From contig NZ_AULW01000001.1 in assembly GCF_000422485.1 (NCBI RefSeq), positions 62,001 through 126,000 on the forward strand: DNA of 64,000 nt, in the 5' to 3' direction. The stretch comes from Paenibacillus pasadenensis DSM 19293. Lineage in GTDB: Bacteria > Bacillota > Bacilli > Paenibacillales > Paenibacillaceae. Below, piece by piece: positions 7,827 to 23,760 of this stretch. The translations under genes and the position numbers were made by a program. Under the pieces are notes generated by a model, which saw only the letters and a list, made by a program, of their open reading frames with translations, was not told the origin of the DNA and did not search any database. Each line of letters opens with the position of its first letter. Position 1 is the first letter of the stretch.

Positions 7827-9227
7827 ATGAGGGCGATGTGGGGAATCCGCCTGGACCGGGACGGCGACATGCCGATGAAGCGCCAGCTGTTCGCCGCGCT
7901 GCGGGAGCGGATCTGGTCGGGAGCGCTCGCCGCCGGCGAGGAGCTGCCGTCGACGCGGCGGCTCGCGGAGGCGCTCGGCGTCTCGCGCAATACGGTGAAC
8001 GAGGCGTTCGAGATGCTGCTCGCGGAAGGCTACGCAGTCAGCCGTCAGGGGGCGCCGACGCGGATCGCCGACGGCGTGCGGCTGGACCCTCGGTCCGCGT
8101 CAGCGCCGCGTCCGCCCGCCCCTCCGCCCGCGCGGCTGCTGGCGGACTTCCGCACGGGGCAGCCGGACCTGCGGACGTTCCCCCGCTACTTGTGGCAGCA
8201 GCTCGCCGCCAAGGCGATGCGCGACATGCCGGAGCCGTGGCTCGGCTATACGGGCCCGCAAGGGCTGCCGCGGCTGCGCGAGGAGATCGCCGCCTGGCTG
8301 CTGCGCAGCAAGGGGCTGCAGGCCGATCCTTCCGACCTGTTCATCACGGCGGGAGCGACGCACGCCCTGCATCTGGCCGCCGACCTGCTGTACGAGCCGG
8401 GGCTCGATCTCATCACCGAGGATCCGTGCCATGCGGAGATGATCCGCGTCTTTCTGGAAAAGGGCTACGCCGCCAAGCGCATCCCCGTGGACGAGCACGG
8501 CATGGTCACGTCGCGGCTCGGAGGGCGCCCGGGCAGCCCGATCTACGTGACGCCGTCCCACCAGTTCCCGCTCGGCGGCATCCTGCCTGCCGCGCGGCGG
8601 GCGGAGCTGCTGCGCTTCGCGCGCGAGAGCGGCAGCTACATCCTCGAGGACGACTACGACAGCGAGTTCCGCTACTACGGCGATCCGGCGACACCGCTGG
8701 CCGCGATGGACGCGGAGCGGGTCGTCTACATCGGCACGTTCAGCAAGGCGCTCTTCCCCGCCCTGCGCATCGGCTACGCGATCGTGCCGCGCGCGCTCCA
8801 GAGCCGCTGGACGTACGCCCGCCTGCATGTCGACGTCCAGAACCCGGCGTTCGACCAGGCGGTGCTGGCCGAATTCCTCGCCGCCCGCAAGCTCGACCGC
8901 CACGTCGCCCGCATGCGCCGCCTGTACCGCGAGCGCCGGCAGGCGCTGCTGGAGGCGCTGTCCGAGCAGTTCGGGGACCGCTGGCGCTGCTGGGGCGACG
9001 CGGCGGGGCTGCATCTCGCCGTCGAATTCCCCGGACGCCGCTTCGGCGAGACGTTCCGCGAGCTCGCGCTGCTGCGCGGCATCCGCATCGTCCCGCTGGA
9101 GCAGCATTGCCTCCAGAAAGGCCGGCACGAGAGCAAGCTGCTGTTCGGCTACGGCCATCTCGAGCCGGAGGAGATCACCGCGGGGATGCGAGCGCTGAAG
9201 GCGCTGCTGGACGAAGCCGGAAGCTGA
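7827..9227 (+). CDS. MocR-type regulator (GntR winged helix fused to an aminotransferase-like domain)
   Basis: 466 aa from ATG 7827; ATG 7836 is an equally plausible start because the GGGGG at 7821-7825 is better spaced from it. The N-terminal winged helix includes GEELPSTRRLAEALGVSRNTV. A Pro/Ala-rich linker (about residues 85-105) leads into a fold-type I aminotransferase-like domain with TAGATHALHLAADLL, the EDDYDSEFRY segment and GTFSKALFPALRIGY, whose lysine should bind PLP. MocR proteins sense PLP or amino-compound ligands. The divergent EamA exporter is the likely target, a common MocR arrangement. Confidence 0.93.
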   Translation: MRAMWGIRLDRDGDMPMKRQLFAALRERIWSGALAAGEELPSTRRLAEALGVSRNTVNEAFEMLLAEGYAVSRQGAPTRIADGVRLDPRSASAPRPPAPPPARLLADFRTGQPDLRTFPRYLWQQLAAKAMRDMPEPWLGYTGPQGLPRLREEIAAWLLRSKGLQADPSDLFITAGATHALHLAADLLYEPGLDLITEDPCHAEMIRVFLEKGYAAKRIPVDEHGMVTSRLGGRPGSPIYVTPSHQFPLGGILPAARRAELLRFARESGSYILEDDYDSEFRYYGDPATPLAAMDAERVVYIGTFSKALFPALRIGYAIVPRALQSRWTYARLHVDVQNPAFDQAVLAEFLAARKLDRHVARMRRLYRERRQALLEALSEQFGDRWRCWGDAAGLHLAVEFPGRRFGETFRELALLRGIRIVPLEQHCLQKGRHESKLLFGYGHLEPEEITAGMRALKALLDEAGS

Positions 9228-21126: not shown

Positions 21127-21150
21127 GCTCGACTGCATGGAGGACAGTCC

Positions 21151-21530
21151 GATTCGGCGGATCCAAGGCACATTTGTGCCCTGGTTGTCCGTTGCAAGCC
21201 CAATTTCGGGCGAATCCAAGGCACATTTGTGCCTTGGTTGTCCGTTCCTAGCCCGATTCGGCGAATCCAAGGCACATTTGTGCCCTGGTTGTCCGTTCCT
21301 AGCCCGATTCGGGCGAATCCAAGGCACATTTGTGCCTTGGTTGTCCGTTCCTAGCCCGATTCGGCGAATCCAAGGCACATTTGTGCCCTGGTTGTCCGTT
21401 CCTAGCCCGATTCGGGCGAATCCAAGGCACATTTATGCCCTGGTTCCCAGTTCCAAGCCCGATTCGGCGAATCCAAGGCACATTTATGCCCTGGTTGTCC
21501 GTTCCAAGCCCGATTCGGCGGTTCCAAGGC
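21151..21530. repeat. 51/52-bp hairpin tandem repeat array (family 2) with a 103-bp higher-order unit
   Basis: Seven full copies and a degenerate eighth. Each has GAATCCAAGGCACATTTGTG, a CCAAGGCACA/TGTGCCTTGG stem with a TT loop, then GTTGTCCGTTCCTAGCCCG and ATTCGGC or ATTCGGGC. Copies start near 21161, 21213, 21264, 21316, 21367, 21419, 21470 and 21521, alternating 51 and 52 bases. Copies also alternate between GTGCCTTGG and GTGCCCTGG. Segment 21213-21315 is repeated exactly as 21316-21418, a perfect 103-base duplication. The open frames crossing it (NQGTNVPWIR-type) have no ribosome site. With the terminator it fills the gene-free stretch 21127-21704. Confidence 0.93.
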
Positions 21531-21561
21531 AGGAGCAGCCGCGAATCGCAAAGCGGATGGC

Positions 21562-21704: not shown

Positions 21705-22643
21705 CTAGGCGCCGGCCGGATCGAGCTGCGGCCGCGGACCGCCCGCCGTGCGGGTGCGGCTCTGCTTGCCCTCCACGCTGACCGGCACGTCGCCCGCCAG
21801 CGTCACGCGGCGCACGATGCGGCGCTGCTCGCCGTAGTCGTTGACCGCCACATGCTGCGTCGCGCGATTGTCCCAGATGACGACGTCGCCTTCCTCCCAG
21901 CGCCAGCGCACCGTATGGTTCAGCCGCACGACATGCTCCTGGAACAGCTCGAGCAGCTGCCGGGACGCCGAAGTGGATACGTTCAGGATGCGCTTGGCGA
22001 AGCTGCCAAGCACGAGCGCCTTTTCGCCCGTATCGGGCAGCACGCGGACGAGCGGATGCTCCGTCTCGTAGACGGTGGACGCGAACACCTGGCGGTAATC
22101 GCGCTCCTGCTCCAGCGGCACGCCCTTGCGCTGAGCCGCCACCGCATAGTCGAAGTCGTTGCTGTGCACCGCCCACAGCCGCTCGGCCAGCTCCTTCAGC
22201 TCCTGCGGAAGGCTCTCGTAGGCCGCGGCCGTATTCGCCCATACGGTGTCGCCGCCGGCCTCCGGAACGACGACCGCGCGCAGGATCGACGCCGACGGAT
22301 ACGCATCAAGGAACGTGATGTCCGTATGCCACTGGTCCGCCCGGCCGCCATGCTGCGAGTCGACGTCAAGGATGTAGCCCGTCCCTTCCTTGGAAGGGAC
22401 CGTCGGATGGGCGAACGGCTGCCCGAGCCGGGCGGCGAACGCCTCCTGCGCGGCGTCGTCCAGATGGCCCTGGCCGCGGAAGAACAGCACCTTATGCCGC
22501 GCGAGCGCCTCGCGCAGCCGGACGATATCCTCCTCGCCGAGCCGATCCGACAGCACCACTCCGCTCACTTCCGCTCCCGTCGCCGGCGTGACCGGCCGGA
22601 TTTCCCATGCTCCACTCTGCTCTGCCTGCTGCTGCTCGCTCAT
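21705..22643 (-). CDS. TauD/TfdA-family Fe(II)/2-oxoglutarate dioxygenase
   Basis: 312 aa. The iron ligands are H106 and D108 (QWHTDITFLD) and H264 (RATQHVAVNDYG); the 2-oxoglutarate arginine is in GEQRRIVRRVTLAG. N-terminal IRPVTPATGAEVSGV is also typical of TauD. Start 22643 is chosen because AGGAGG is 9 bases upstream; another ATG, at 22652, touches that site. Such enzymes hydroxylate sulfonates (taurine) or related compounds to release sulfite; the exact substrate is unknown, and no sulfonate transporter is nearby. The leader contains an intrinsic terminator before the start codon, so premature termination is likely to regulate it. Confidence 0.93.
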   Translation of the reverse strand: MSEQQQAEQSGAWEIRPVTPATGAEVSGVVLSDRLGEEDIVRLREALARHKVLFFRGQGHLDDAAQEAFAARLGQPFAHPTVPSKEGTGYILDVDSQHGGRADQWHTDITFLDAYPSASILRAVVVPEAGGDTVWANTAAAYESLPQELKELAERLWAVHSNDFDYAVAAQRKGVPLEQERDYRQVFASTVYETEHPLVRVLPDTGEKALVLGSFAKRILNVSTSASRQLLELFQEHVVRLNHTVRWRWEEGDVVIWDNRATQHVAVNDYGEQRRIVRRVTLAGDVPVSVEGKQSRTRTAGGPRPQLDPAGA

Positions 22644-22675
22644 CCTTTTCATCCTCCTGTTGCCCTTCTGCCTGG

Positions 22676-22817
22676 AAAAAAAGCCAAAAAGGCCCACGAC
22701 AGCTCCTGTACGCTGTCATGGACCTCCGGTTTGACCGGCGGGCCTATTCCCAAGTTTCCCGGGCTATTTATTTGGTCTTTCTGCATTCATCCTACCGCTC
22801 GATGCAGCAGCTGTCAA
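22676..22817 (-). promoter_or_regulatory. Promoter and terminator-containing leader of the TauD-like gene (candidate riboswitch or attenuator)
   Basis: Minus strand: -35 TTGACA (22812-22817), 17-base spacer, -10 TAGGAT (22789-22794). The roughly 140-base leader has three hairpins: H1 CCCGGGAAACTTGGG (22749-22763), H2 CCGGTCAAACCGG (22726-22738), and H3, a 13-bp stem GGTCCATGACAGC/GCTGTCGTGGGCC (22691-22724), followed by TTTTTGGCTTTTTTT (22676-22690). H3 is a classical terminator ahead of the gene. GGCCC at the end of H1 (22739-22743) can pair with GGGCC of the H3 arm, giving an alternative multibranch fold. I recognise no T-box, S-box or other common riboswitch consensus. Confidence 0.75.
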
Positions 22818-22818
22818 T

Positions 22819-23760
22819 CTATATTTTTATATTCCTACCCGAATAGTGTGAATAGGTGGATTCCAGCCGCTTTTTCATCGCGATGCCCGCCAGCGGCTCC
22901 AGCTCCGGACCCAGCTTGCGCAGGATCCGGTACGGCTCCCAGCCCAGTCCGCTGTAAAGCAGCAGCGCCTTGGCATTCGGGCTATGGCAGACGAGATGCA
23001 GCTCGTCCGCGCCTAGCCTTTCCCCGGCGTCCCGGCACAGCTTCAGCAGCAGCGCCTCGGCGGCGCCTCGCCCCCGCAGCTCGGGATTCACGATGACGTT
23101 GCCGATCCACCATTGCCCCTCGTCCTCATACACGTTGGCGTAGGCGGCCGGCGTCCCAGAGGCGTCCAGCATCAGCGTCGGCAGCCGGCGCTCCGCGGCG
23201 CGCGCCTGCAGCCGCTCCGCCCGCAGCGGCCAGCCGCCGCTCGGGAACATGTAGTACGCTTCCGATCGGCTGCGCGGCCAGCCTGCGATCTTCTCGAAGT
23301 CGGCCGCCTCCGGCTCGCGGCTGCCGTAGCGGCGCAGCTCGCAGCGCCAGCGCTCGCGGCCGGGATGGAGCTCGCCGAGCGGACGCGCCGTGCAGCCGAT
23401 GCGCCGATAAAAGCCGACGGCGTCGTCGTCCGTCTCGGCGACGAGCCGGCCTGCCGCGGAGCGCTCGAGCGCATGCCGGACGAGCCTGCGGCCGATGCCG
23501 CAGCGCTCCGCCTCGGGCAGCACCGCCAGATGCCGCAGCTCGACGCCGCCGTCCGCCTCCCTCCGCCACCCGGCCAGTCCGACGAGCCTTCCTTGCTCGA
23601 TCCGTCCGGCCAGCTCCAGCTCCGGCTCGCTTTCGTAGCGGGCTGCGATCTCCGCGGCCCGGCCGGGATCGAACAGCGAGCGGGCGAGCAGCGCGTTCCG
23701 CTCCTCCCGAGGCCCGGTCCGCAGATCGATCCATCCGCCCTTCCCCTCCGGCGCCGTCAG
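22819..23760 (-). CDS. Tandem GNAT acetyltransferase (two GNAT domains)
   Basis: About 313 aa. Domain 1 (residues about 10-145) has LAVLPEAERCGIGRRLV as acetyl-CoA motif A; domain 2 (about 160-313) has NVIVNPELRGRGAAEALL and a closing SGLGWEPYRILRKLG. The start is uncertain: there is no ATG or GTG near the beginning of the homology. I place it at a CTG (23760) overlapping the SGNH stop codon (CTGA), implying translational coupling. The next in-frame ATG upstream (23964) would overlap the SGNH gene by about 200 bases, which is unlikely. The substrate is unknown. Stop 22819 is two bases from the -35 of the TauD-like promoter. Confidence 0.78.
   Translation of the reverse strand: MTAPEGKGGWIDLRTGPREERNALLARSLFDPGRAAEIAARYESEPELELAGRIEQGRLVGLAGWRREADGGVELRHLAVLPEAERCGIGRRLVRHALERSAAGRLVAETDDDAVGFYRRIGCTARPLGELHPGRERWRCELRRYGSREPEAADFEKIAGWPRSRSEAYYMFPSGGWPLRAERLQARAAERRLPTLMLDASGTPAAYANVYEDEGQWWIGNVIVNPELRGRGAAEALLLKLCRDAGERLGADELHLVCHSPNAKALLLYSGLGWEPYRILRKLGPELEPLAGIAMKKRLESTYSHYSGRNIKI

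Follow-up and report, generated by a model that had tools for sequence, protein, structure and literature searches.

A putative transcription attenuator ahead of an atsK-like gene of Paenibacillus pasadenensis, and a candidate family of antiterminator hairpins before sulfur genes of Bacillota

The window, a 64,000-nucleotide stretch of the Paenibacillus pasadenensis DSM 19293 genome, contains on its minus strand a gene for an alpha-ketoglutarate dioxygenase preceded by a compact leader with a promoter, two small hairpins and an intrinsic terminator. The features, in the order of transcription, are as follows.

22789 to 22817, minus strand: promoter, TTGACA (22817-22812), 17-nt spacer, TAGGAT (22794-22789), with 10 of 12 consensus matches
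22749 to 22763, minus strand: weak first hairpin, CCCGGG-AAA-CTTGGG
22721 to 22744, minus strand: putative antiterminator hairpin, GGCC (22744-22741), CG, CCGG (22738-22735), TCAAA loop, CCGG (22729-22726), A, GGTC (22724-22721)
22726 to 22738, minus strand: CCGG/CCGG hairpin, the second upstream hairpin
22691 to 22724, minus strand: intrinsic terminator hairpin of 13 bp with loop GTACAGGA, the 5' arm of which opens with the GGTC of the antiterminator
22676 to 22690, minus strand: U-tract, TTTTT, GGC, TTTTTTT
22653 to 22658, minus strand: Shine-Dalgarno sequence AGGAGG of the dioxygenase gene
21705 to 22643, minus strand: gene for an AtsK-like alpha-ketoglutarate dioxygenase of 312 aa, TauD family PF02668

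The next gene past the dioxygenase gene is a convergent SRAP gene, and a 51-bp repeat array (approximately 7.4 copies, 91% matches) lies between the two at 21149-21531. Upstream, an acetyltransferase gene on the same strand ends at 22819. The dioxygenase gene had been called TauD-like in the initial annotation, and its place in the TauD family (PF02668) was upheld, but TauD was not its closest relative: among the nearest solved relatives, AtsK scored 374 bits, the entries containing Rv3406 scored about 268 to 289 bits, and TauD scored 182.5 bits. AtsK is an alkylsulfatase (alkyl-sulfate dioxygenase) and Rv3406 is a sulfate-ester dioxygenase. Because the protein is nearer to AtsK than to TauD, its substrate is more likely to be a sulfate ester than taurine.

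The promoter, the two upstream hairpins and the 13-bp terminator stem with its TTTTT run, all of which the initial annotation had proposed, were borne out at the positions given above. The stem arms of the terminator (22724-22712 and 22703-22691) enclose a loop of 8 nt; the terminator scan counts 16 pairs, made up of the 13-bp stem and flanking pairs. Promoter-like sites numbered two in 3 kb (shuffle mean, 0.2) and terminator-like sites three (1.4 in shuffles), with the leader terminator having the longest stem by far. The folding energy of the 141-nt leader was -55.1, compared with -39.2 (standard deviation, 3.7) for shuffled sequences (z = -4.3), and 1 of 200 shuffles equaled it. A promoter downstream of 22676, which would place the terminator outside the dioxygenase transcript, was looked for and none was found; such a promoter is unlikely because just 47 nt separate the terminator hairpin from the ATG start codon at 22643.

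Two mutually exclusive folds had also been suggested, through pairing of GGCCC with GGGCC in the terminator arm. That pairing exists only in the window, and relatives carry GACCC, GACCG or GGCCG. The conserved exclusive partner is instead GGCC at 22744-22741, which pairs with GGUC at 22724-22721, the start of the terminator 5' arm. Two further pairings, a long-range closing stem around both hairpins and a pairing of CCUUUU with the Shine-Dalgarno sequence, were possible in energy folds; they were either not alignable or invariant, so neither has covariation support.

A DNA search recovered the leader in 5 of 59 genomes, including that of the window, all from one genus, and a strict pattern recovered it in 5 of 394 genomes of the family. 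It stands ahead of the same gene in five of the eight species of the genus. In these five leaders the promoter and the leader core were conserved and the sequence farther upstream had diverged; TTGACA was in place in four, with TTGCCG in the remaining one. Both helices of the antiterminator, including the four GGCC/GGUC pairs, were kept in all five, and the terminator and the CCGG hairpin were paired in 100% of the cells of the five-sequence alignment. Changes on both sides of a pair were confined within the genus to two terminator pairs. For the weak first hairpin, a CCC/GGG-type equivalent is possible in relatives, where the alignment is poor. The terminator loop GUACAGGA (22704-22711) was invariant in the five leaders, and loops elsewhere varied. 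In genome G007, the first reading frame of at least 90 aa upstream runs divergently from the dioxygenase gene, so that the terminator there is most likely part of the dioxygenase transcript.

All eight genomes of the genus encode a related dioxygenase, with an identity of only 62 to 63% in G002, G003 and G004, and in these three the window-type leader was absent by both DNA search and strict pattern. A plasmid search with the leader gave no match. For a covariance model built from the five leaders (R1), the weak matches outside the genus that were inspected resemble ordinary terminators or coding sequence, and a second R1 match in G005 (40.9 bits), located after a binding-protein-like gene, was likewise taken for an ordinary terminator.

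The arrangement is wider than the leader itself. The regions ahead of 25 related genes (24 from other genera) were inspected by eye, and six showed a promoter, a terminator and a CYRG hairpin of the same type. The conserved core is a hairpin of 27 to 28 nt, NNNC-NA-CYRG-loop-CYRG-A-GNNN, in which the 3' GNNN doubles as the start of the terminator 5' arm. A scan for this hairpin plus a terminator in 57 loci (50 around related genes in the family and 7 from the genus of the window; 811,716 bases) gave 53 matches, compared with none in reversed sequence; several of the 53 have one G-C terminator pair at most and are probably due to chance, and 49 remained when two such pairs were required. Without the outer-stem requirement, 93 loci (1,062,363 bases), including 12 of 20 genus loci, gave 100 matches against 2 reversed, and 55 of these were nonredundant. 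By contrast with the Bacillota, 77 related dioxygenase loci not labelled as belonging to this phylum gave no match in 515,550 bases, while two of three named Bacillota loci (Paenibacillus herberti and Peribacillus sp. SI8-4) matched. The P. pasadenensis locus L008 failed the scan, probably because its U-run is short; its leader was recovered by the model through L121, taken as the same contig.

Raw pattern matches, many of them chance ones, occurred in 68 of 299 phylum genomes and in 88 of 250 class genomes; by manual count, there were approximately 114 raw phylum matches, compared with approximately 41 when the pattern was read backwards. Both stems were kept in 34 of 51 raw-match rows examined, overlapping duplicates and rows of nonstructural appearance having been left out, and loci were then fetched partly on the basis of that inspection. 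In the fetched loci, structurally valid copies outside sigma-like contexts came from 14 families, 12 of which had one or more copies with a sulfur or sulfur-compatible gene behind. A promoter-like pair of boxes was present within 130 nt upstream in only 37 of the 55 nonredundant matches. In locus L199, tandem copies lie 78 nt apart on the reverse strand (at 7876 and 7798) before a single permease-like gene. Many Paenibacillaceae leaders (for example, those of L158, L173 and L249) share an AT-rich upstream stretch just after the -10 box, AAATCATAGTAA..ATAGGAA, which may be an operator such as a CymR box; the ATAGGAAT-like sequence in leaders of this family is similar to such a box.

The first genes behind the element include those for AtsK, NMT1-type binding proteins, ABC transporter subunits, sulfatases, luciferase-like monooxygenases, ATP sulfurylase and 3'-phosphoadenylylsulfate (PAPS) reductase. 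First genes were called by a crude start rule, and 56 of the proteins were scanned with Pfam, the rest being assigned by eye or by clustering. For the atsK-anchored matches, a biased sample, a first gene was called in 41 of 49: 15 belonged to the AtsK/TauD-type cluster, 11 encoded binding proteins, 5 ABC ATPases, 3 permeases, 3 major facilitator superfamily (MFS) proteins, 2 sulfatases and 2 others. Loci found by the pattern alone provided 49 valid matches, of which 6 preceded a plain sulfur enzyme gene, 10 a sulfur-compatible gene, 3 a nitrogenase-like gene, 5 a sigma-like gene and 25 another or unassigned gene. The six sulfur enzymes were two ATP sulfurylases, a PAPS reductase, a short frame resembling S-adenosylmethionine (SAM) synthetase, and two AtsK proteins with 60% identity to the window protein; the sulfur-compatible genes encoded luciferase-like monooxygenases (three), NMT1 binding proteins (two), permeases (two), ABC ATPases (two) and an FMN reductase (one).

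Individual loci illustrate these contexts. In L339 (1887-1480, minus strand), an S-box riboswitch, a small gene that is presumably DUF2292-like, the element and a PAPS reductase gene lie in series. In Peribacillus sp. SI8-4 (L074), two divergent sulfur operons carry one copy each, of which one passes both the scan and the model and the other the model only; one stretch contains a binding protein gene and a TauD-family gene, and the other contains, by eye, an ABC ATPase and a permease gene. The genome of the window itself has another copy, ahead of a gene for an NMT1-type binding protein, with a luciferase-like monooxygenase gene further along the stretch, and in G002 a copy of the wider element is found about 5.8 kb upstream of the dioxygenase gene, again before an NMT1-type binding protein gene. 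In L303 (7188-7460), a 91-aa frame behind the element matches SAM synthetase only at the N and C termini, as though the central part were absent. Nitrogenase-like (PF00148) genes follow the element in L291, L297 and L299; they possibly encode sulfur-salvaging reductases rather than nitrogenases.

Comparative support for the antiterminator was sought, as the initial annotation had advised, and covariation was found in its outer pairs. Because the inner stem was a search criterion, the outer stem alone provides an independent test of covariation. Outer pairs 1 to 4 were formed in 52, 50, 40 and 34 of the 55 nonredundant matches, respectively, and these counts were equaled in 90, 0, 1 and 1 of 2,000 shuffles, the first pair being near-invariant. 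At least four consecutive outer pairs were present in 29 of 55 matches, compared with approximately 11 expected when partners were permuted. In an alignment of 40 sequences, the covariation score was 0.585, compared with 0.331 after shuffling that retains relatedness; none of 500 shuffles scored as high, and slid alignments reached 0.237 at most. This alignment, from which a second model (R2) was built, comprised 40 of the 44 nonredundant sequences from outside the genus; four had been dropped by eye, three of them lacking the first outer pair.

The window leader is supported as a member by R2, from which the genus was excluded. Among 13 matches in an unfiltered search of both window strands, the leader (22746-22719) ranked first with a modest score of 17.1 bits (E = 0.012), and the runner-up scored 13.7 bits (E = 0.13). 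In 97 kb of genus loci, the top eight matches (17.9 to 24.9 bits) comprised the leaders of four ssuA-type binding-protein genes and those of the four other atsK genes, with the next match at 11.3 bits. The combination of CYRG/CYRG, A and a terminator arm occurred once in the 64-kb window and not at all in reverse. As is common among the copies, though not universal, the leader precedes a sulfur-acquisition gene, that of the AtsK-like dioxygenase. The usual NA internal loop and 4-nt apical loop, which are not strict, are absent, and the leader has CG and 5 nt in their places. A 5-nt loop was present in 9 of 53 nonredundant matches and NA in 50 of 55, with CG in one row that was taken as chance. 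Since the genus has the CG internal loop and the 5-nt loop, the window leader is best described as a variant member of the element.

A lookalike of the element was found in phages. The form ACCAGNNAACTGGAGGACAC was present in 66 IMG/VR stretches (L342 to L407), with a terminator of at least six pairs in all 66 and an outer stem of at least three pairs in 54, and R2 detected the hairpin in all six phage loci given to it. The proteins encoded by the next genes fell into clusters of 38 and 21, with 7 others or none. Of eight that were scanned, four had a phage sigma-factor family as the best match and one a transcriptional activator; the other three fell into a family without an assigned function and matched a transcriptional regulator more weakly. 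Aeribacillus phage AP45 (L408, 1501-1723) has the same arrangement ahead of an annotated "positive control sigma factor." In the contigs inspected, the phage lookalike often lies directly after the apparent stop codon of the preceding gene. The position of the examined copies before transcription regulators implies either that the element is not restricted to sulfur genes or that the phage form is convergent.

The absence of a match to known leaders, asserted in the initial annotation, was confirmed by Rfam 15, which gave no match in the window at the gathering cutoff; the best subthreshold match there was Xoo2 (E = 0.044), on the other strand. Scans of the window and 36 further loci, most of them element bearing, gave no Rfam match on the element. 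S-box (SAM-I) riboswitches (RF00162) likewise precede sulfur genes of Bacillota and act through terminator control, and both elements occur in the L339 operon, but no S-box match fell on the window leader, nor on the element in the loci scanned. T-box leaders share terminator/antiterminator control in Bacillota; however, the window leader has no Rfam match to them. The ribonucleic antiterminator (RAT) targets of LicT and SacY are similar in that a short imperfect hairpin overlaps the terminator 5' arm and the default state is off. They differ in their conserved bases and in serving sugar genes, and their protein is known. In the literature, an unnamed attenuator of Bacilli with a premature terminator has been mentioned, in two gene contexts: the operon of a sulfonate transporter and an unknown gene (Naville and Gautheret 2010, PMC2965389). 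It shares with the present element the occurrence in Bacilli, the premature terminator and the link to a sulfonate transporter operon; the text passages of that report give no motif. It may or may not be the CYRG element, of which it would be the first sighting. No other recognizable description was found in the literature searches and, given this and the lack of an Rfam match, the element is rated as a new family of terminator/antiterminator leaders.

The promoter, the terminator, the exclusive folds, their conservation and covariation, and the recurrence before sulfur genes were read from the sequence. On this evidence, the leader of the atsK-like gene is likely to be a transcription attenuator that is off by default and is opened by a factor that holds the antiterminator hairpin, and the element probably constitutes an uncatalogued switch before sulfur genes in many Bacillota. 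In 96 of 97 matches the terminator had a greater predicted stability than the antiterminator (means of -17.7 and -7.6; -24.5 and -11.7 in the window), so that the default state should be off and the antiterminator would need a holding factor. The nascent RNA would thus fold by default into the strong intrinsic terminator, leaving the atsK-like gene off. The antiterminator hairpin, made first, would borrow the first four bases of the terminator 5' arm as its 3' strand; a factor acting in trans, most likely a protein that is present, or active, during sulfur scarcity, would bind and hold this hairpin, block the terminator and permit read-through. One such element would govern a set of sulfur-acquisition operons across many Bacillota. 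We infer that the terminator is under regulation, with sulfur status as the signal and a protein rather than a metabolite as the sensor.

The initial annotation had left the choice between a riboswitch and an attenuator open. Attenuation is favored by conservation, covariation and recurrence before sulfur genes, whereas no conserved 5' aptamer was seen. It is nevertheless conceivable, if rather unlikely, that this short hairpin, which has a 2x1 internal loop and a small apical loop, serves by itself as the aptamer to which a sulfur metabolite binds. The association with sulfur genes, the A before CYRG in 50 of 55 matches, the preference for A in the loop and the lack of any known candidate sensor protein all fit a small-molecule switch, and in Paenibacillaceae the stretch that many leaders share downstream of the -10 box, ahead of the hairpin, might form part of an RNA domain. 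However, the loop and the first base of the internal loop are variable, and no structured domain common to the 97 upstream sequences was visible by eye, which argues for a protein over a classical aptamer, short of proof. What is conserved is a small hairpin, more reminiscent of a protein-bound antiterminator. Moreover, a ligand that stabilized the antiterminator would turn the gene on when plentiful, as suits a starvation signal or an inducer and not an end product.

That the hairpin is an ordinary terminator, which ends the acetyltransferase transcript or damps the dioxygenase gene without regulation, is improbable. Terminators are common, and in the window the acetyltransferase gene does lie upstream on the same strand, but the promoter sits between that gene and the terminator, the nearest upstream frame in G007 is divergent, the divergent sulfur operons of Peribacillus have one copy each, and the antiterminator pairs covary. 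The proposal that CsrA or another protein binds the terminator loop GUACAGGA draws on the invariance of that loop in the five genus leaders and on the presence of csrA in all eight genus genomes; csrA is equally present in the three genomes that lack the leader, however, and visual inspection of the wider family showed no conservation of the loop, so that we regard this as very improbable. Slimmer still are the chances of two other mechanisms. For attenuation by ribosome stalling on a leader peptide, a 45-codon frame spans the window leader, but no frame is common to the five leaders, the same frame elsewhere containing stops or lacking a start. Antitermination of the ANTAR type would follow the same logic as the proposed antiterminator, and of the 23 element-bearing genomes searched, 15 had ANTAR genes, that of the window among them; the other 8, including nearly complete genomes and G007, which has a window-type leader, gave no match. 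ANTAR targets have paired hexaloop hairpins, and these are missing here.

A default-off attenuator of the atsK-like gene, opened when a factor, most likely a protein, holds the antiterminator, remains our preferred reading. A broader version, in which a phylum-wide sulfur-starvation antitermination system has its own RNA-binding antiterminator, the target hairpin of which phages of Bacillota have also acquired as a gate on a transcription regulator, is tentative and has somewhat less than an even chance of being correct. The phage lookalike before regulators raises the question of which signal host and phage share. If the attenuator interpretation is true, sulfur regulation in Bacillota has an antitermination layer that current RNA annotation has missed. 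This layer would cover the scavenging of sulfonates and sulfate esters, sulfate activation, and perhaps nitrogenase-like reductases, and the element would provide a handle for fishing out the missing factor.
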